In this document: one piece after another, positions 2,557 through 24,197 of the stretch
Layout: each line of letters opens with the position of its first letter
Numbering within the stretch: the stretch's first letter is position 1
Origin: a virus
Virus record (IMG/VR): IMGVR_UViG_3300046167_000254
Span: 1-35,697 of that record
DNA length: 35,697 bases
Direction: 5' to 3' (one strand)
Program-made: the position numbers and the translations under genes
The notes under the pieces: model-generated
Database searches by the model: none
What the model was told of the DNA's origin: nothing
Seen by the model: the letters and a program-made list of their open reading frames with translations, nothing else

Positions 2557-2946
2557 TTAAATTTCAAAGCTTTTTATTACTTGATTTAATAATTTCTCTT
2601 CATCTACAAATGCTTCTGGATATAATCGAGTTGATGTTTTTTTTATTACTGGATCATCACCTCTAGCCCAATATATTTTCTTTATATCATATGCCACCAA
2701 AGCGTACACATCAGACTTCTTATCCCTGACAGGCTGCGTATTCCATCTATATTGTGTGAGATTGCCTGATTTTCTGCTGGCTGTTTTAACTTGTAGGGTC
2801 AGCAATTTACCGCTTGGCGTTTTCAAATATGCATCATCAATTTCGTGTTGAACCAAGATGCATGAAATGCCAGCAAAAGATAATCTTGATAGAGCTAGAA
2901 ATTCACCAGCTCTACCAACATTATTATTATGCGTTGAGCCATTCAT
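2557..2946 (-). CDS. Putative PD-(D/E)XK-type nuclease (129 aa)
   Basis: I start at the ATG at 2946, which overlaps the end of the lysozyme gene by 20 bases. The frame is open further upstream, but only inside the lysozyme. Residues about 10-65 carry the layout of a PD-(D/E)XK core: a Gly-Arg-Ala-Gly-Glu-Phe helix, an Asp-Asp-Ala-Tyr segment, then Leu-Gln-Val-Lys-Thr-Ala, the usual strand with the catalytic Lys. It resembles small endonuclease-like or Hjc-like proteins. It is the last leftward gene, so it would be made late and could trim host or concatemer DNA. Activity and substrate are inferred. Confidence 0.55.
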   Translation of the reverse strand: MNGSTHNNNVGRAGEFLALSRLSFAGISCILVQHEIDDAYLKTPSGKLLTLQVKTASRKSGNLTQYRWNTQPVRDKKSDVYALVAYDIKKIYWARGDDPVIKKTSTRLYPEAFVDEEKLLNQVIKSFEI

Positions 2947-3544
2947 AAATTTTGTTTGTCTCGCCTGTCCGGTCAACAATTCCATGTGTTCCACCGTTGA
3001 CTCGGCGTGTTATTTTTAAGATTGTCTCGTCATTCACACCGTCATCTGCAATGTTAAACAACTTGTTTTTCTCAAAGAACCATAATGCTGTATCAAAAGC
3101 ATAATCTGTGGATACCAAATCAGGGTCTGTCATTATCTCAGGTAAGCCCATGTCAGAGCTGAATAACCTGTAATTATTCTTCCCGGTCAACTGCAAGAAT
3201 CCGCGCCCAATATAAGTTGAGCCATCAGTTTCAGTGTTGTTCCCCATGCGCCCGCCGTAAACCTTGTTAGCTAGAGCTGATGGATTGCGCGAGTAACCTT
3301 CGCAAGACGCTAAGTCAGGGAAGCGGCTAGGCCAAACGCGCATCATACTGTCTGCGCTATAGTTTAAATTTTCCCTTGTATGACGCCAGTGACCGCTTTC
3401 GTGGCTTGCTTGACCCATCAGGTGCGCAGCTCTCTCATTAGATAGCTCGTAGTGTTTTGCGATGGCCTTTGCAGTGTTCTTACCAAAATGCCCATCAGCG
3501 CCTACTCCAACTTTTTCTTGGAGCTTTTTCATTGCTTCACTCAT
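2927..3544 (-). CDS. Endolysin, glycoside hydrolase family 19 with N-terminal peptidoglycan-binding-like segment
   Basis: A 205-aa lysis enzyme that cleaves the glycan backbone of peptidoglycan. The first 30 residues resemble a short peptidoglycan-binding fold (Leu-Gln-Glu-Lys-Val-Gly...Asp-Gly-His-Phe-Gly). The GH19 domain follows, with QASHESGHW (Glu49), ENLNYSA (Glu58) and YIGRGFLQLTGKNNY, the classic catalytic and substrate-groove motifs. I use the ATG at 3544 because it begins the folded part and abuts the previous stop; extending to 3595 only adds a basic tract. There is no signal peptide, so it depends on the holin two genes upstream. The next nuclease gene overlaps its 3' end. Confidence 0.9.
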   Translation of the reverse strand: MSEAMKKLQEKVGVGADGHFGKNTAKAIAKHYELSNERAAHLMGQASHESGHWRHTRENLNYSADSMMRVWPSRFPDLASCEGYSRNPSALANKVYGGRMGNNTETDGSTYIGRGFLQLTGKNNYRLFSSDMGLPEIMTDPDLVSTDYAFDTALWFFEKNKLFNIADDGVNDETILKITRRVNGGTHGIVDRTGETNKIYEWLNA

Positions 3545-3545
3545 G

Positions 3546-3701
3546 TTATTTCTTCTTTTTCTTTTTGGCAGTCTTAGCTGCCGCTTTAAATGCACCCGCA
3601 GTTGGTGCGCCTTTTGTACCGGGCTTACGCATCTTCTCGCCGCTACCAGCTTTGATGCGCTTACGTTTCTTTGCGATATTTCCGTATAATGAATTTACCA
3701 T
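3546..3701 (-). CDS. Small highly basic protein (51 aa)
   Basis: An ATG at 3701 preceded by GGAGATAATCT opens a 51-aa reading frame ending at 3546, two bases before the lysozyme start. The product begins MVNSLYGNIAKKRKRIKAGS and ends in a run of Lys after an Ala/Lys-rich stretch. It resembles other small Lys/Gly-rich proteins common in marine phages and could bind nucleic acid or act as a minor virion protein; this is inference. It lies between holin and lysozyme without gaps, which supports it as real. Confidence 0.6.
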   Translation of the reverse strand: MVNSLYGNIAKKRKRIKAGSGEKMRKPGTKGAPTAGAFKAAAKTAKKKKKK

Positions 3702-3711
3702 AGATTATCTC

Positions 3712-4116
3712 CTATTTCTCAATTTTCTTTAACTTCTCTATTGACCTCATTCCGCCTAATCCGAGCATTCCCATCATCACAGTCATAAGTGAACCCATAT
3801 CAAACTCTGGCAGCTCTGGTATGTCAATGCCAGCAGCAGTTACACCAAACACAATCAATGGCTGTAAAACAAAGTGATAAGCAAAAGCTACACCACACAC
3901 CCAACCTATGAATGGACGCCATCCACCTTTGAATAGTGAGCCAGACGCGGCTTCAGCTTTGTTTATTTCAAGCTGACCCATTAGGGCTTGCTGGGCATGG
4001 TTATCTGACATCGTGGCGATCTCATGGGCTAATGCAGCCTTTTGATCTTTATCTTCAATTACCTTATCTAACAGGCCAGTTACTGGGCCTATTAAATTAT
4101 TTACGAGACTCATCAT
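3712..4116 (-). CDS. Holin, 3TM family
   Basis: This 134-aa protein matches the 3TM holin family first noted in gene transfer agents. An amphipathic N-terminal half (residues 1-60) is followed by the hallmark GGWRPFIGWVCGVAFAYHF stretch running into Leu-Gln-Pro-Leu around residues 64-88. A second membrane stretch rich in Met and Gly follows at about 105-125, with a basic tail. Holins open the inner membrane so that the endolysin reaches the wall; the GH19 enzyme lies two genes downstream. The start overlaps the end of the EF-hand membrane gene by 20 bases. Confidence 0.85.
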   Translation of the reverse strand: MMSLVNNLIGPVTGLLDKVIEDKDQKAALAHEIATMSDNHAQQALMGQLEINKAEAASGSLFKGGWRPFIGWVCGVAFAYHFVLQPLIVFGVTAAGIDIPELPEFDMGSLMTVMMGMLGLGGMRSIEKLKKIEK

Positions 4117-4429
4117 TTTGTTTACCTTTCGCTAATGCGTTAGCACCAAAGAATACGCTCACTATGCCTGCAACAGACACAAAGTAAATGCTTGCCATAG
4201 AGCCTAATATCTTGGCGGCTTCTGTTAAACTAAATACATCCGCTAGAATGACTGCAAAGGGGTATAGGAGCATCCCTGACAGGGCGTACCACGTCATCTT
4301 GCGTTGTGCATCACGTTGGGCGTCTTCATCTTGCATTCGTAAGCGTCTATCTTCAAGAGCCATACGATCCCATTCGGCTTGATCTATTGACCCGTTTCCA
4401 TCCACGTCAAACTTTTTAAACTCATCCAT
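4097..4429 (-). CDS. EF-hand protein with two membrane helices
   Basis: A 110-aa protein. Residues 8-19 form a canonical Ca2+-binding EF-hand loop (DVDGNGSIDQAE) with ligands Asp8, Asp10, Asn12, Ser14, Asp16 and Glu19. A charged helix follows, then two hydrophobic segments at about 47-67 and 73-97. Only one EF-hand is visible, so it may dimerise. It sits directly before the holin and overlaps it, so a role in lysis timing or membrane sensing is plausible but unproven. I recall similar EF-hand membrane proteins in marine myoviruses, but none with a function I know. Confidence 0.75.
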   Translation of the reverse strand: MDEFKKFDVDGNGSIDQAEWDRMALEDRRLRMQDEDAQRDAQRKMTWYALSGMLLYPFAVILADVFSLTEAAKILGSMASIYFVSVAGIVSVFFGANALAKGKQNDESRK

Positions 4430-4437
4430 ATTTTCAC

Positions 4438-4947
4438 CTAATCTGCTAATGGGTTATCCAATGCTCTTTGTAATTTATCCATCAATCTTTCTTCTAGCTC
4501 TTTCATTGAGCCACTTTGGGAAACTCTAACACGTTCACGCTGATTTTCAAAGCGTACCTCCGCATCATCTATCATAGACCTTACTTTGTCTTCCGATTCA
4601 CGCACCATATCTTCAATACGATCTGTCTGTTGCTCAATGCGTAATATATCGTCTTTCAGGCCATTCTTTATGTCTCTGGTGTATTCTACGCTTTCTTCTA
4701 CCTTTTCAGATATGCCAACTATCTTTGCATCCATCACATTCATGTTTTGCTGATATGCTTCTATATCTAACCCTGCTACAGCTTCTATTTTTTGATACAA
4801 GACAAAGCCTCCATATAAGCCGCCAACGATAGTAGATAGGAAAGCAAATATAGCCATAATAGAACCAGCAGTTAATCGCATACCACCAGCTTTAATCTGG
4901 CGGTCTGCTAATCCATCTATATCACTTGCTATCTTAGTCGTATCCAT
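4438..4947 (-). CDS. Membrane-anchored coiled-coil protein (169 aa)
   Basis: A short cytoplasmic segment is followed by one hydrophobic helix (about residues 28-52, Ala-Gly-Ser-Ile-Met-Ala...Gly-Gly-Leu-Tyr-Gly-Gly-Phe-Val-Leu). A long heptad-rich, charged coiled coil follows (about 60-165). This is an N-in, C-out bitopic layout reminiscent of i-spanins or division/secretion coiled-coil proteins. No outer-membrane lipoprotein partner with a lipobox was seen nested or downstream, so the spanin idea is weak. Its ATG overlaps the stop of the preceding exported protein, and the EF-hand gene follows nine bases later. Confidence 0.7.
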   Translation of the reverse strand: MDTTKIASDIDGLADRQIKAGGMRLTAGSIMAIFAFLSTIVGGLYGGFVLYQKIEAVAGLDIEAYQQNMNVMDAKIVGISEKVEESVEYTRDIKNGLKDDILRIEQQTDRIEDMVRESEDKVRSMIDDAEVRFENQRERVRVSQSGSMKELEERLMDKLQRALDNPLAD

Positions 4948-5345
4948 CAGTTTTCAAAGTCCATCTCATTGCCTTTTTCTTGCAGGCTTTTTAATTGAGC
5001 TAATTCATCACGTAGCATTTGTATCTCAAGCCTACGCTGCGTAAGTTCTACTTGGTATAGGTCATCACAGTTTATGCGTGATCTAGGTTTATCTAATGGT
5101 ATAACTATGCGGGCATATACACCAATATCCTTTGCCCTGTCTATTGTGTCAAAGCTAGATAAAACGCCCGTGACGCCATACTCAAGGTTTATTCCACCTC
5201 CAACTGCGTTACTGCAATCAAGATTACCAGCGCGAAACCTGTCACTCTGGTAGTTCATTGGTGGATTTGGCAAAGATAAACTAAGATTACTACTTTCAGC
5301 TAACGCAGCGCCGCCAATTATGGATAAAATGACTGCATATTTCAT
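4947..5345 (-). CDS. Exported protein with C-terminal coiled coil (132 aa)
   Basis: The N-terminus (MKYAVILSIIGGAALAES) is a textbook Sec signal peptide with an Ala-Leu-Ala cleavage site near residue 16. The mature part holds two Cys (in LDCSNA and INCDDL), a Gly-rich beta-looking middle and a C-terminal coiled coil (about 95-125, Arg-Arg-Leu-Glu-Ile-Gln-Met-Leu-Arg-Asp-Glu). The fold suggests a periplasmic or outer-membrane-associated protein. The gene follows the chaperone-like exported gene with no gap and overlaps the coiled-coil membrane gene by one base. The function is unknown. Confidence 0.7.
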   Translation of the reverse strand: MKYAVILSIIGGAALAESSNLSLSLPNPPMNYQSDRFRAGNLDCSNAVGGGINLEYGVTGVLSSFDTIDRAKDIGVYARIVIPLDKPRSRINCDDLYQVELTQRRLEIQMLRDELAQLKSLQEKGNEMDFEN

Positions 5346-5729
5346 TTAGTTTCCTCCATTAATTTTTGAGCATATTCTTGAAGAAATAAGCGTTCTTGTT
5401 CCGCGTGACTTAACAACCTTAGATATTGTGCAAACGTACAATGGGTTATTTAAATCTGATCTTCTAATATACACCTCAAAGTCTCTTCTCTCTTTATGGT
5501 CAACTTTCATAATTCTATATGTAGAAGAAAATGGCATACTGTTAAAGTCTAAATCAAACAGCTCGATCTGGTAGTATTTAACGTCTTCACGCTGGTTAAA
5601 TAAAGATAGCTGAACTTTCATCACGCCAGATACATGAGATGGTTTTAGCTTTGGATAGGCTGGCGTCATCTCATGTGCATGAACTATAGACGCCAAGCCT
5701 ATGAATAATATGGATAATTTATTTAGCAA
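5346..5729 (-). CDS. Exported Ig-like, possibly periplasmic-chaperone-like protein (127 aa)
   Basis: A signal peptide (MLNKLSILFIGLASIVHAHE, cut near residue 18) precedes an approximately 108-residue all-beta mature domain. Alternating hydrophobics in the Val-Lys-Val-Gln-Leu-Ser-Leu-Phe, Tyr-Tyr-Gln-Ile-Glu-Leu-Phe-Asp and Phe-Glu-Val-Tyr-Ile segments resemble an Ig-like sandwich such as the N-terminal domain of fimbrial chaperones. Two Cys (YVCTI and RICSK) may pair. It overlaps the preceding pilin-like exported gene by 11 bases, and that pairing strengthens a subunit/chaperone reading. The chaperone role is inference from fold-like patterns and context; no usher gene is present. Confidence 0.65.
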   Translation of the reverse strand: MLNKLSILFIGLASIVHAHEMTPAYPKLKPSHVSGVMKVQLSLFNQREDVKYYQIELFDLDFNSMPFSSTYRIMKVDHKERRDFEVYIRRSDLNNPLYVCTISKVVKSRGTRTLISSRICSKINGGN

Positions 5730-6210
5730 TGCATTCTGCTTGAACTACAGCGGTATATGTACCACCAGTAAAAGGCTTGGAGGCTGCATAAGTTGCAGTT
5801 GAAGATGTAGAAAACCAAGTAGAGCCTGCAACAGTTAAGTCAAATACAGTTGTATTATCGTAAACTACCTTTGCGCTATCATACCCACTCATGCCTGCGT
5901 CTGATGTTTTTGATACGCTTGTTGAGCCTGTCCACGTTACACTATCTGACAATGCTGGTGATGAGCTGAATGATGTAGGGTGTGTAATGTTTGCTGTATA
6001 ATAATCAGCAATAGCTACATCAAATCTAACCACTGGCAATACACCACCATCTGATGGAGCTGTACTTAGTGTACTTGCTGTAGGGTTTCCATATACCCCA
6101 GATTTATCTGTTTGTATCACGCACTTGGCGGCTACATTACCAACTATATCCACACTGCCTGCATAAGCAGGGAATGCACATACTGTAAGCATCATTGTAA
6201 AATATTTCAT
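5719..6210 (-). CDS. Exported pilin-like beta-sandwich protein (163 aa)
   Basis: A signal peptide (MKYFTMMLTVCAFPAYAGS, cut after Ala-Tyr-Ala) leads a Ser/Thr/Gly-rich all-beta mature chain. One Cys lies near its start (AAKCVI) and one at the very end (AECIAK), a pattern seen in DUF4402/fimbrial-type adhesin subunits. A C-terminal alternating strand (GGTYTAVVQAECIAK) resembles a donor-type strand. It may be displayed on the cell surface or be part of the virion. It overlaps the next exported gene, which looks chaperone-like. The family assignment is tentative and rests on pattern rather than a search. Confidence 0.65.
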   Translation of the reverse strand: MKYFTMMLTVCAFPAYAGSVDIVGNVAAKCVIQTDKSGVYGNPTASTLSTAPSDGGVLPVVRFDVAIADYYTANITHPTSFSSSPALSDSVTWTGSTSVSKTSDAGMSGYDSAKVVYDNTTVFDLTVAGSTWFSTSSTATYAASKPFTGGTYTAVVQAECIAK

Positions 6211-6217
6211 TTTAACC

Positions 6218-7092
6218 TCACTTGTTATATTGCATGTCTACCATTTTCTCATGCAGAACTTGTTGTGCTAAATTATTTCGTAAACCCTTCTTATTATCAG
6301 GCAGGTTTCCATCAACTAATTGAGCTGTATCATTATATATACCACCATTTATGGAGGAATTATAGTACATAGCTAAATCTGTGCTTTGGTTCATAGCAGC
6401 TATGATTTCAGACTGACCTTGGGTTCTTAACATAGTCAAAGCATTAGCTGATGCTGTTAAACCCATCTCAAGCCTTGTTTCTTTTTCTTCATCCTCCTCG
6501 TCAGGTATTATGTTGCCCTCTTCATCATACTCATAGTCTAATTCTGTATCTATCGCCTCCAAAACATTATCATCTTCTAATGCAGCGTATACTTCAACTT
6601 CAGGTATTTTTGGCACTGGCTTTATATAACCAGGGACAAGCAGGGTTAGATTGTTCATCATAACATTCATCTATCCTGAAACTATATATAACAACAGGGT
6701 TTTCTACGCTGCCCTCGCCTTCAACTTCAATAGACCCATCGCCCCATAACACTGATGGTACATTTCTGAATGAAAAGGTTCGCACAATTGTATTACCGGG
6801 TACGCCAGACCAATCATCTGTTTTGCGAAACATATAGCCTTCACCATTAGCATTCTTATTGCCTATATGAACCTTTCATATCTGCGTCAGTTTCTTTGTT
6901 GGTGGTGTATCGGTAAACCATACCATTTATATCAACGCCTGGTATGGATGGTAAAATAGAACTCATGCCCCAGCTCAAAGAGCTGGAGGCTGCGTTCTTA
7001 GTTACACCATACGAATATGGATCACATTGCGAGTAAGAAGGCCAGAGTGCTAATGATAACACCAAACCCCATTTTAGTTTCAACATTTTCAT
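6218..7092 (-). CDS. Exported acidic protein, about 290 aa, interrupted by two frame breaks
   Basis: Three consecutive open segments (7092-6856, 6833-6600, 6670-6218) read as one protein if one base is removed near 6865 and one C of a CCC near 6642-6648. The N-terminus (MKMLKLKWGLVLSLALWPSYSQ) is a signal peptide. A beta-rich domain follows, including a conserved-looking Cys pair (DECYDEQSNPACPG), then a very acidic Glu/Asp stretch and a helical C-terminus. The first 70 bases overlap, in another frame, the end of the upstream gene. Continuity of composition across the breaks argues for sequence error rather than three genes. The function is unknown; it belongs to the exported-protein cassette. 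Confidence 0.6.
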
Positions 7093-7576
7093 TGAATATC
7101 TTTCGCATTGGGTTGTTTTGATCTCTTTGTATTTCCTCTTTAACTGCTTCCATTTCCCACGCTAATCTAGCTTTATCTCCAACTAAACCATCTTTAGGGC
7201 AAGGTGTTCCAGCGTTGAGCATGGCTTCAAATACGCGCTCATCCTGACACATTACAGATACAGCAGCTACCTTCATGCCCATATCATACATAGTTTTAGC
7301 GTTTTTCAATTTTTCGCAGTTCATATCACGCACAGTTCTGCCAGCAGATATGCCAAGTATTTGCGTTTGCACAGCTCCAGCTACACCTACAGTACATAGG
7401 TCAGAGTTGCTTGCGCTAATTTGTGGGGATATTGCTGAAGGTGGTGGGCTATTGATTGTGGTGTCCATAGTTCCATCAGAAATTACTCTACTTTCAGACT
7501 TAATCGTGTCATCGTCTTCTGCATACGCAAAGCCACCAGTAAGTAATAGACACACGATTATAAATAAACGTATCAT
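7022..7576 (-). CDS. Exported, C-terminally anchored protein (184 aa)
   Basis: A signal peptide (MIRLFIIVCLLLTGGFAYAE, cut after Ala-Tyr-Ala) is followed by a Pro-rich stretch (NSPPPSAISP), then a Cys-containing helical core. Segments Ser-Asp-Leu-Cys-Thr-Val-Gly, Asp-Met-Asn-Cys-Glu-Lys and Val-Met-Cys-Gln-Asp-Glu-Arg-Val-Phe supply Cys that could pair in the periplasm. The last 15 residues are hydrophobic (GFGVIISTLAFLLAM). I recall the Pro-rich/Cys pattern in proteins of marine phages, without known function. The gene starts inside the stop of the preceding gene (ATGA). Its 3' end is overprinted by the signal peptide of the next gene. Confidence 0.7.
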   Translation of the reverse strand: MIRLFIIVCLLLTGGFAYAEDDDTIKSESRVISDGTMDTTINSPPPSAISPQISASNSDLCTVGVAGAVQTQILGISAGRTVRDMNCEKLKNAKTMYDMGMKVAAVSVMCQDERVFEAMLNAGTPCPKDGLVGDKARLAWEMEAVKEEIQRDQNNPMRKIFNENVETKMGFGVIISTLAFLLAM

Positions 7577-7797
7577 TTTCGCTCCAGAATGCGATCCATC
7601 TTAGCGTCTAATAAGTCAAGCCGACCAAATAATCTATTCATCGACGCAGAGTTGTCGCTTTTAGTTACATACTCTTCTCTAGTACGATTTAATAAGATTT
7701 GCAATCTTTGCACTTCAAGCACGTAACCACGTAGGACAAAGCCTATAAAACCAACGCCTAGCGTTAGTACGCTGCTCCATAGGTCTGTCATTTCCAT
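7573..7797 (-). CDS. Small membrane protein with coiled coil (74 aa)
   Basis: One N-terminal hydrophobic helix (about residues 7-27, starting Ser-Ser-Val-Leu-Thr-Leu-Gly-Val-Gly-Phe) is followed by a charged amphipathic coiled coil ending Asp-Arg-Ile-Leu-Glu-Arg-Lys. This is an N-anchor plus coiled-coil layout often seen in phage lysis-accessory or i-spanin-like genes. It overlaps neighbours on both sides by four bases (ATGA), so it is part of the same translational unit. No specific family is recognised. Confidence 0.65.
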   Translation of the reverse strand: MEMTDLWSSVLTLGVGFIGFVLRGYVLEVQRLQILLNRTREEYVTKSDNSASMNRLFGRLDLLDAKMDRILERK

Positions 7798-21872: not shown

Positions 21873-24197
21873 TTATGCTCCTTCTAAAGCTGTAATACGA
21901 GCCTCTAGCTCTTGGATTGTTTTTACTAATAGTGGTACAAGTTTAGACTGATCTATGCCTTGGTACTCTGGGTTGCCATCTGCATCAACTGCATCTTTAG
22001 CTCCAGTTACACACTCTGGTACAACTGCTTGTGCTTCGTGGGCTAAGAAACCATCGACTGTAGTATCTGGATCAGCAATAAAGTTAAACCTTGCTGGCTT
22101 GAGTTGCTTTAACCTAGTTGTAGCATCCCATGTGTAGTCTACGTTTTCTTTTAGGCGGTAGTCTGATGAAGTGTTGTATGCGGTTGATGAGCCACTTGTG
22201 GAAATTGTACCGACAGTGCCGTTGCCATTAACAAAGACCATTCTATGTCTAAAGTTAGTATCTGCTCCACCAGAAACAGTAATAGATGGATGAGCAGTAT
22301 TAGTAAAATTAATACCAGAAGCGGATGATGAAGGAGGTTGATGCCAAATTAAATCTCCAGATGCATTTATATGCACTCTAGGATTACCATCCCCATCAGA
22401 CAGCACGATGTTGTTGCTTGAGGTGCGGATGTCTAGGCCGCCTTGGTTGCCGTTGTAGCGTCCAAGGATGGTGTTACCACCGCCACTAGTTACAAGAACA
22501 CCAGCTTGTTGACCAATAAGTGTGTTAGCTCCACCTGTTGCATAGAAACCTGCCTGTCTACCAAAGAAAGCATTATACTGACTTGTAGTATTAGTATAGC
22601 CAGCTTCATGACCTACTGCTGTGTTGCTACCTGCGGTAGTATTATTATAAAGTGAGCGAAAACCCATTGAAACATTATCAGACCCTGTCGTACTATACCT
22701 AGAACTTTCGTAACCAACAGCAGTGTTTTGAGTTGCGGTAGTAGTACTATAAGCCGATTGATACCCAACTGCCGTGTTGTTACTTGCGGTGGTGCTTGAG
22801 ACTAAAGAAGCATAACCAATAGCAGTATTGTTACTACCCGTCGTATTAAATTCTAAAGAAGCCATACCAAAAGCCGCATTTCTCTCACCAGTTGTATTAG
22901 CCTCTAAAGATGTTCTTCCGAAAGCTGTACTTCTTTCAGCTGTACTATTTTTCAGAGCGTGATAACCAACAGCAGTGCTGTAGCTTGCGGTGGTGTTGGA
23001 CTGTAAAGCACGATGGCCTATACCAACATTGTTAATACCTGTAGTATTAGCACCTAATGCATTATAGCCTCCTGCAAAATTATATGAAGCAGTAGTGTTA
23101 TTTGCTAGTGTATACATACCAATACCCACATTATCTGCGCCAGTAGTATTAGCATATAAAGCAGATTGACCAACAGCCACATTATTAGCACCAGTAGTGT
23201 TTGTTAATAAAGAATACAAGCCATAAGCAGAGTTATTAGCACCTGTAGTATTCTCTCTCAGTGCCTCCACACCAACTGCTGTGTTGTAATTTGCTGTAGT
23301 ATTTGATGATAAAGCACCTTTACCAACTGAAACATTACTAAAGCCTGTAGTATTAGCATAAAGCGACTGATACCCAACTGCTGTGTTGTTTGATGCGGTG
23401 GTGTTGGAACGTAGTGCATCTCTCCCCATAGCTACGTTGTTTGAACCAGTAGTGTTAAAGTTTAAAGAGGCAAAACCTATGCCAATATTGTTGCTACCTG
23501 TAGTGTTCGTGCCTAGTGCCTTACCCACAGCTACATTTATATCTCCTGTAGTATTAGCATAAAGCGACTGATACCCAACTGCTGTGTTGTTTGATGCGGT
23601 GGTGTTTGAGTAGAGGGAAGAATCACCTACCGCTACATTATTACTTCCTGTGGTATTTGTGTCTAAAGACTGTGTACCTACAGAAACATTATAATTACCT
23701 GATGTAGTATTATTTAATGCTTGAGTACCTATTGCAACATTCTGACTTCCTGAAGTATTAAATGTTAATGCGTTATCTCCAACAGCAGTATTATAGTTTC
23801 CGCTAAGAGAACCATCATCTAATGCATTATCACCCAACGCCACGTTGCCTGTACCAACAGGATAGTTTCCGTCTAGCTTGATTGTGCCGCCGTCTACTGA
23901 AACATTACCTGCAACTGTAAGGGATGTAAGGCTTCCAAGTGACGTAATATTAGCTTGTGCGGCAGTAGTTAGTGTACCTGCAATATTTGTAAATGTACCA
24001 GCCGCTGCTGATGCACCGCCAATGACTGTACCATCAATCGTACCAGAGTTAATATCAATACCCGTGACAGGTGTTGTCCCGTCTAGCAGATTATCAACGC
24101 TATCTAAATTGGTGTTTATCTTTGTACCCCAAGTATCCTCGGACGCGCCAACTTCTGGTTTTACCAAACCATATGTGGTTGTTGTAGTATCAGCCAT
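21873..24197 (-). CDS. Tail fibre with 17-residue repeats and C-terminal S74 peptidase chaperone domain (774 aa)
   Basis: Residues 1-40 ([20 protein letters not shown]) are a typical fibre anchor. From about 115 to 560 runs a tandem array of some 26 copies of a 17-residue repeat (consensus Thr-Gly-Ser-Asn-Asn-Val-Ala-Val-Gly-x-x-Ser-Leu-x-x-Asn-Thr). This is the left-handed beta-roll seen in YadA-head-like adhesins. A linker and a small domain lead to the S74 intramolecular chaperone from about residue 677 ([10 protein letters not shown], nucleophile Ser with Lys683), which trimerises and then cuts itself off. The last 20 residues are a coiled coil. This is probably the receptor-binding fibre. 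The repeats show recent duplication in the DNA. Confidence 0.9.
23344..23606. repeat. Two exact 62-bp copies inside the fibre gene
   Basis: The 62 bases at 23344-23405 recur exactly at 23545-23606, 201 bases away. They code for the same 17-residue repeat plus flanks. The distance equals 67 codons, four repeats less one residue, because one intervening repeat is a residue short. Identity at third positions points to a recent duplication or gene-conversion event. Confidence 0.85.

Follow-up and report, generated by a model that had tools for sequence, protein, structure and literature searches.

Among described systems, the two-component spanins (lambda Rz/Rz1, T7 18.5/18.7) offer a close comparison for a six-gene block in the virus record IMGVR_UViG_3300046167_000254, whose entire 35,697 bases are referred to here as the window. 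The block consists of P0006, P290, P0004, P0003, P0002 and P0001, in order of transcription, at 7576-4438 on the minus strand. Like the spanin genes, it stands near lysis genes, and P0001 looks laid out like an inner-membrane spanin (i-spanin), with a scored N-terminal hydrophobic stretch, a coil recognised by eye and a predicted topology. Furthermore, some capsid-related phages lacking the block have a spanin-like pair or a lipoprotein near the same place. However, the block differs from spanins in that no outer-membrane lipoprotein was found, five further exported proteins are encoded and no sequence match was obtained. Within the reach of a heuristic lipobox scan, the block does not qualify as a known spanin, but it may still work like one. 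It is tentatively proposed that it takes care of the outer-membrane stage of lysis, with no lipoprotein spanin involved.

Two parts of the chaperone-usher pathway also invite comparison. In its structure model, P0003 shares with FGL chaperones such as Caf1M the immunoglobulin (Ig) fold and a cysteine pair in the last two strands, and like them it is exported by prediction, but it has one domain instead of two, no usher and no Pfam PapD match. Chaperone-usher pilins (CfaB, FimG, CsuA/B) have a glycine 14 residues from the C-terminus, as does P0004, whose model also shows a two-cysteine beta-sandwich and a short N-terminal segment like theirs. P0004 differs in its weak fold scores, in the position of its second cysteine within the last strand and in the lack of a Pfam match. 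An usher (PF00577) was found in none of 13 block-bearing virus records, some of which may be fragments, while the E. coli control was positive; a chaperone-usher system was ruled out on the missing usher and the one-domain chaperone. The curli (type VIII secretion) genes of pelagiphages, a precedent for phage-encoded secreted fibres according to an excerpt of PMC9599517, resemble the block in that CsgF-CsgG-CsgB of HTVC008M likewise form a multi-gene exported module in a phage. The CsgG pore was absent from the same 13 records, the six family profiles did not match HTVC008M gp13-gp18 or its first 100 kb, and hhalign of five block families against its CsgF, CsgG and CsgB gave nothing. This candidate was dropped for lack of CsgG in the 13 records and of similarity to the three HTVC008M proteins. 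The assembly G010, which holds the block-bearing loci L231 and L232, has four CsgG genes, and their loci share no sequence with L228, L229, L231 or L232. Finally, phrog_20531, an unnamed P0006 family of pelagiphages and roseophages, combines a P0006 homologue with a nearby protein ending in NPL in all ten loci fetched, but P0004, P0003 and P0002 were not found in these ten.

An earlier note on the window had described a late cassette of five consecutive signal-peptide genes followed by a membrane-anchored coiled-coil protein. The block is real and this interpretation is partly supported. On its minus strand, the window encodes terminase, portal, scaffold and capsid proteins, followed by the block and after it by a holin (phrog_3427) and an endolysin (phrog_181), which bears out both the late, co-oriented export block and its place between head and lysis genes. 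The block lies downstream of the capsid gene and directly upstream of an EF-hand gene, the holin and the endolysin, and its genes overlap, abut or stand a few bases apart. Frames are open at 7576-7022, 6210-5719, 5729-5346 (with a TTG start), 5345-4947 and 4947-4438, the last being the anchored protein expected next in line, with a scored hydrophobic anchor and a coil seen by eye. P290 does not form the single frame at 7092-6218 that had been supposed, as it is broken in the window over three frames (7092-6856, 6833-6600 and 6670-6218); relatives have an intact P290 of 290 residues with a signal-like start.

Signal peptides were assessed with a home-made score on 56 non-overlapping minus-strand open reading frames (ORFs) of the window, 7092-6218 being removed by the overlap filter. 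The score was positive for 7576-7022, 6210-5719, 5729-5346 and 5345-4947, it also responded to the membrane anchor of 4947-4438 via an alternative start, and it fired on none of the remaining ORFs among the 56. Hence four of the five proposed signal peptides are seen in the window and the fifth only in relatives. Shuffled proteins scored as signal-like in 101 of 2800 cases, the shuffles being made without the alternative starts allowed to real proteins. When distinct homologues that include an N-terminus were scored, the start was signal-like in 110 of 111 for P0006, 115 of 119 for P290, 99 of 99 for P0004, 98 of 98 for P0003 and 90 of 91 for P0002. This scoring was lenient on start codons and cannot separate a signal peptide from an anchor, because P0001 too scores 99/99. 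Conserved cysteine columns number four in P0006, two each in P290, P0004, P0003 and P0002, and none in P0001; the numbers in the exported families are as expected for an oxidising periplasm. The C-terminal 14 residues of P0006 are hydrophobic in 94 of 111 distinct homologues, and of 191 P0001 hits, 182 have DNPLAD or DNPLSD at the C-terminus. Median ratios of nonsynonymous to synonymous substitution rates (dN/dS) of 0.06-0.18 (10 sequences per gene, 13-36 usable pairs) indicate that all six genes are under purifying selection. Together, these sequence features show a conserved block encoding five predicted exported, cysteine-paired proteins and one predicted N-terminally anchored protein.

The earlier suggestion to look for the same gene order elsewhere was borne out, the synteny being conserved in viral contigs and assemblies. 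In pattern scans of viral contigs, with at most 80 loci kept per scan, confirmed relatives made up 551 of 553 pattern matches for P0006, 402 of 425 for P0003 and 330 of 342 for P0004. In viral loci with room for the neighbour, the order was kept from P0006 to P290 in 169/179, P290 to P0004 in 185/186, P0004 to P0003 in 182/190, P0003 to P0002 in 187/187 and P0002 to P0001 in 178/178; these counts include repeat fetches of one contig and leave out ten reference-phage loci (L101-L110). The misses amount to 19 of 920 neighbour pairs, 16 being start-codon choices of the ORF caller and 3 wider gaps. A scan of genome assemblies yielded five loci, with a P0003 that is identical in L228 and 56% (L229), 45% (L230), 42% (L231) and 38% (L232) identical in the others. 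The block order is kept in all five, the sequence of L229 beginning inside P290. The habitat of the viral contigs appears to be marine, because they are kin to pelagiphages, roseophages and a sea-ice phage.

A smaller core is more widespread. A P0006 homologue occurs in 11 reference phage records, and in all ten that were fetched a protein ending in NPL stands downstream, sometimes after other genes. The P0001 profile recognises this protein in 4 of the 10, that of HTVC115P being matched also by tblastn (E 2e-9). Judging from these sequences, P0006 with an NPL-ending anchored protein is a recurrent pair in pelagiphages and roseophages, and the P0006 core is present in phages of SAR11 and Roseobacter bacteria. 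P0004, P0003 and P0002 were not found in these ten loci, and the phage collection, searched by tblastn, gave no match to P0003, P0004, P0002 or P290. A relationship between P290 and the large partner proteins of pelagiphages was not supported, save for a suggestive C-terminus in HTVC115P (hhalign probability 70, 29 columns). In roseophage-type loci, small P0006-like lipoproteins stand directly before P0006 (L104 5558-5818, L305 10270-10506, L336 6490-6693) and are possible outer-membrane spanins (o-spanins) of a P0006 system.

No curated family appears to name any of the six block proteins. Pfam gave nothing above its cut-off for the six among the window proteins, P290 being searched as broken pieces, and NCBIfam gave nothing for all six. 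Sequence searches of solved structures with profiles A1, A2 and A3 brought nothing beyond a match at E 1.1 to a phage DNA-binding protein. Among the matches listed in open-licence literature, no printed description of such a block was found, and the excerpt of a pelagiphage transcriptome paper (PMC12753301) is silent on P0006-like genes. The task of the block is likely a known one, and its machinery is not described in the sources searched.

In the favoured explanation, the six proteins would form one envelope complex. P0001, with its N-terminal anchor, periplasmic coil and conserved C-terminus, and P0006, secreted and with a hydrophobic C-terminal tail, would sit at the inner membrane, and P290 and P0002 would reach through the periplasm. 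Until assembly, the beta-sandwich P0004 would be held by P0003, which might donate a strand to it. Once the endolysin has cut the wall, the complex would collapse or pierce the outer membrane, thereby standing in for a spanin while needing no lipoprotein in that membrane. The full version of this proposal, a lipoprotein-free multi-protein machine in which an inner-membrane coil, a tail-anchored periplasmic protein and a strand-donating chaperone/beta-sandwich pair replace spanins in disrupting the outer membrane, is put forward as doubtful. The block offers a concrete multi-gene candidate, present in hundreds of viral contig stretches, with a natural comparison in related phages that have a spanin-like pair or another protein of unknown function in about the same position. 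Should its role be a different one, the block would still be a conserved, unannotated envelope module.

This proposal draws on what stands downstream of the capsid gene in related phages. Loci were fetched by capsid similarity, twice; 138 entered, 116 were distinct with a capsid match and 54 were classed, namely 53 with at least 4 kb downstream and DB virus 2 (L236). The block is present in 8 of the 54 and a smaller P0006 module in 6; TMC (a 150-residue family with a C-terminal anchor) is found in 27, a lipoprotein candidate alone in 10 and none of these in 3, two kinds being present in one locus in 7/54. TMC (phrog_32327, function not known) is the commonest alternative, at 11970-12425 in L362 and in 26 other loci. 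P0006 and TMC never occur together in the 54 loci (Fisher p 1.2e-5), and the block never occurs with TMC or a counted lipoprotein (p 1.2e-6; p 0.046 against lipoproteins alone), although, to the detriment of the proposal, these p-values overstate the separation because loci share ancestry, and are guides only. The lipoprotein count left out lipobox matches of at least 125 residues (P0006 in L278, P0004 in L371 and a 262-residue lipoprotein in L373), matches lying at least 6 kb downstream, and, in L305, L331 and L336, the small lipoproteins that resemble P0006; it included the chance-looking lipobox matches of L251, L304 and L308 and the second of L336. Most simply, the stretch downstream of the capsid gene may hold alternative solutions to one late envelope task, some of them spanin-type disruption of the outer membrane.

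In the phage collection, the capsid search gave its best match (67.5%) in DB virus 2 of Octadecabacter, a phage without the block. Just after its lysozyme gene, a transmembrane protein (weak match to phrog_1026 'Rz-like spanin', E 0.014) overlaps a lipoprotein frame. In its record (MW805364 23640-23852), the annotated gp33 seems to have a longer lipoprotein frame overlapping gp32, which is probably an unannotated o-spanin. Its gp19 and gp29 are named lysis-related in an excerpt of PMC9239159. The proposal is further favoured by the lipoprotein of L287, which matches phrog_1275 'Rz-like spanin' (E 9e-6), and by the small P0006-like lipoproteins paired with P0006 in roseophage-type loci.

Lipoproteins were sought with a heuristic six-frame lipobox scan, which found its positive controls, lambda Rz1 and T7 18.7. 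It found no lipoprotein in the window, and 8 of the 13 block-bearing records (35-80 kb; two searched to about 97%) have no lipobox candidate in any frame. In the excerpt of the paper on CRP-810 (PMC11288001), no spanin or holin is mentioned. Spanins of unimolecular type were reported in cultured cobaviruses (PMC6775973, excerpt), and a general lack of spanins therefore does not hold for phages of marine Rhodobacteraceae.

Several observations weigh against the proposal. In each of the other 5 of the 13 block-bearing records the scan did give a single lipobox candidate, which was judged implausible by eye; two of these candidates are short and share the strand of the block, and the other three lie on the opposite one. 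No counted lipoprotein is present in 29 of the 46 block-less loci either, and the scan finds none in two block-less phages, HTVC106P and phiM5; the latter has an annotated putative spanin, so the scan can miss or the annotation is wrong. Hence the absence of a lipoprotein alone proves little. The comparison of loci was also uneven, since the search for TMC covered both strands of each locus and that for lipoproteins no more than 6 kb of the capsid strand, and it has exceptions. L230 carries the block together with TMC on the other strand, and the distant block-bearing L231 and L232 have a small lipoprotein on the other strand. L279 and L289 combine the P0006 module with a lipoprotein, and L277 and L287 combine TMC with a plausible o-spanin. 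When terminases are compared, DB virus 2 is surpassed by other records and is absent from the 15 matches listed. Finally, six proteins are a lot for one lysis step.

The best-surviving rival, which we consider rather unlikely, is a guard function late in infection: by coating or modifying the host envelope, the exported proteins would block adsorption or DNA entry of other phages or prevent the loss of progeny to debris. The predicted periplasmic location would suit such a guard, and the P0006 partner of HTVC202P weakly matches the carbohydrate-binding CBM_4_9 (E 0.02, below cut-off). However, the block adjoins the holin and endolysin genes, which is late for exclusion, and the purifying selection described above shows no sign of an arms race. 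PADLOC, which covers phage exclusion genes poorly, gave weak partial matches only, the best to ZorA2 (E 0.0014, coil of P0001) and PDC-M45C (E 0.006, P0003).

It is distinctly unlikely that P0004 polymerises with the help of P0003 into a surface or periplasmic fibre by a chaperone-usher-like route, without an usher or via a host pore. This possibility derives from the folds of the two neighbours, which match both halves of that pathway, and the curli genes of pelagiphages provide a precedent (PMC9599517, excerpt). Structure models were made for both mature proteins. Mature P0003 (109 residues) was modelled as one Ig domain (pLDDT 86, pTM 0.77), and fimbrial chaperones account for 33 of the best 50 of its 1765 Foldseek matches, the best being Caf1M (E 9e-4), the sole match at or below E 0.001. 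A second aligner also places Caf1M first (Z 9.4, root-mean-square deviation 3.5, 100 residues), yet tied with unrelated Ig domains. In its model, P0003 is thus closest to the N-domains of fimbrial chaperones, in agreement with the chaperone-like fold that had been anticipated. Its conserved cysteines lie in strands 79-87 and 96-105, the last two of the predicted model, in which a bond is not observed; this is the place of the F1-G1 bond listed for FGL chaperones in an excerpt of PMC4133393. Mature P0004 was modelled as a beta-sandwich (pLDDT 83, pTM 0.73) with 12 strand-free N-terminal residues ahead of the first cysteine. The anticipated two-cysteine beta-sandwich was therefore recovered, and chaperone-usher pilins make up 20 of its best 50 Foldseek matches listed, with a best E of only 6e-3. 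The second aligner gave no Z of 8 or more, the best (7.2) being to a chitin-binding domain, and therefore the pilin label is only a lead. A fold search of BFVD with P0004 gave one match (E 8e-4) to an uncharacterised phage protein of no assigned function, and Pfam over 42 P0003 and 39 P0004 homologues gave weak, scattered matches only. The chaperone-pilin reading hence holds as a resemblance of folds and fails in the single chaperone domain and the missing Pfam match. A fibre is further opposed by the absence of an usher from the 13 records, which had been foreseen, and by the weak P0004 matches, and it leaves P0006, P290 and P0001 unexplained. The surroundings of the block seem to point more to lysis than to a surface fibre.

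A slim chance is given to a role in the timing of lysis, in which the block would be a periplasmic sensor or an antiholin-like complex that tunes holin firing. The block adjoins the holin and EF-hand genes, and the periplasmic antiholin RI of T4 is a precedent (PMC8385771, excerpt); however, the block is large for a timer, and the EF-hand and holin genes are kept in some block-less phages. That the six are ordinary virion or tail parts with incidental signal-like starts, as their position in the structural half of the genome might suggest, is very improbable given signal-like starts in 97% or more of distinct homologues, conserved even sets of cysteines and lysis genes adjoining the block stretch in the window and its relatives.

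Features of the block and its surroundings in the window, in order of transcription
Feature	Position	Strand	Description
TM74 (74 residues)	7573..7797	-	hydrophobic N-terminus and short coil, by eye; phrog_462 E 1.6e-4
P0006	7022..7576	-	most widespread of the six; 4-Cys domain with a signal-like start and a hydrophobic tail at the C-terminus
P290	6218..7092	-	N-terminal domain and acidic stretch after a signal-like start; C-terminal end conserved as VDMQYN or a near variant
P0004	5719..6210	-	exported two-Cys beta-sandwich (predicted), weakly pilin-like
P0003	5346..5729	-	predicted exported single Ig domain, two Cys in last two strands
P0002	4947..5345	-	predicted exported, two-Cys, C-terminal coil-like stretch by eye; phrog_37374 E 1.6e-7, function not known
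P0001	4438..4947	-	laid out like an i-spanin, with a hydrophobic anchor at the N-terminus, a long stretch resembling a coil by eye, and DNPLAD or DNPLSD at the C-terminus
EF-hand gene	4097..4429	-	EF-hand motif below Pfam's cut-off, hydrophobic segments
Holin	3712..4116	-	phrog_3427 E 1e-33
Endolysin, GH19-like	2927..3595	-	phrog_181 E 4e-47; PF00182 E 5e-9

Of the neighbouring genes, TM74 is a frequent companion that is not specific to the block, occurring in loci with and without it. The EF-hand companion gene is likewise found in phages without the block, and its family is common to the window and the pelagimyovirus HTVC008M (L374 16024-16365). Directly after the block, where the window has the EF-hand gene, three of the assembly loci have a lipase-like gene (L230 11667-12428, L231 11550-12260, L232 11717-12424), which could act on membranes; that of L231 matches PF01764 (E 2e-21), and those of L230 and L232 are similar by eye. 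In the window, the portal (13014-11104), the capsid (9186-8682) and P290 (7092-6218) are each in pieces in different frames. Relatives have unbroken P290 and capsid genes, so the frames of this record were probably disrupted by read or assembly errors. Elsewhere in the window, 21873-24197 encodes a tail-fibre-like protein with many repeats.

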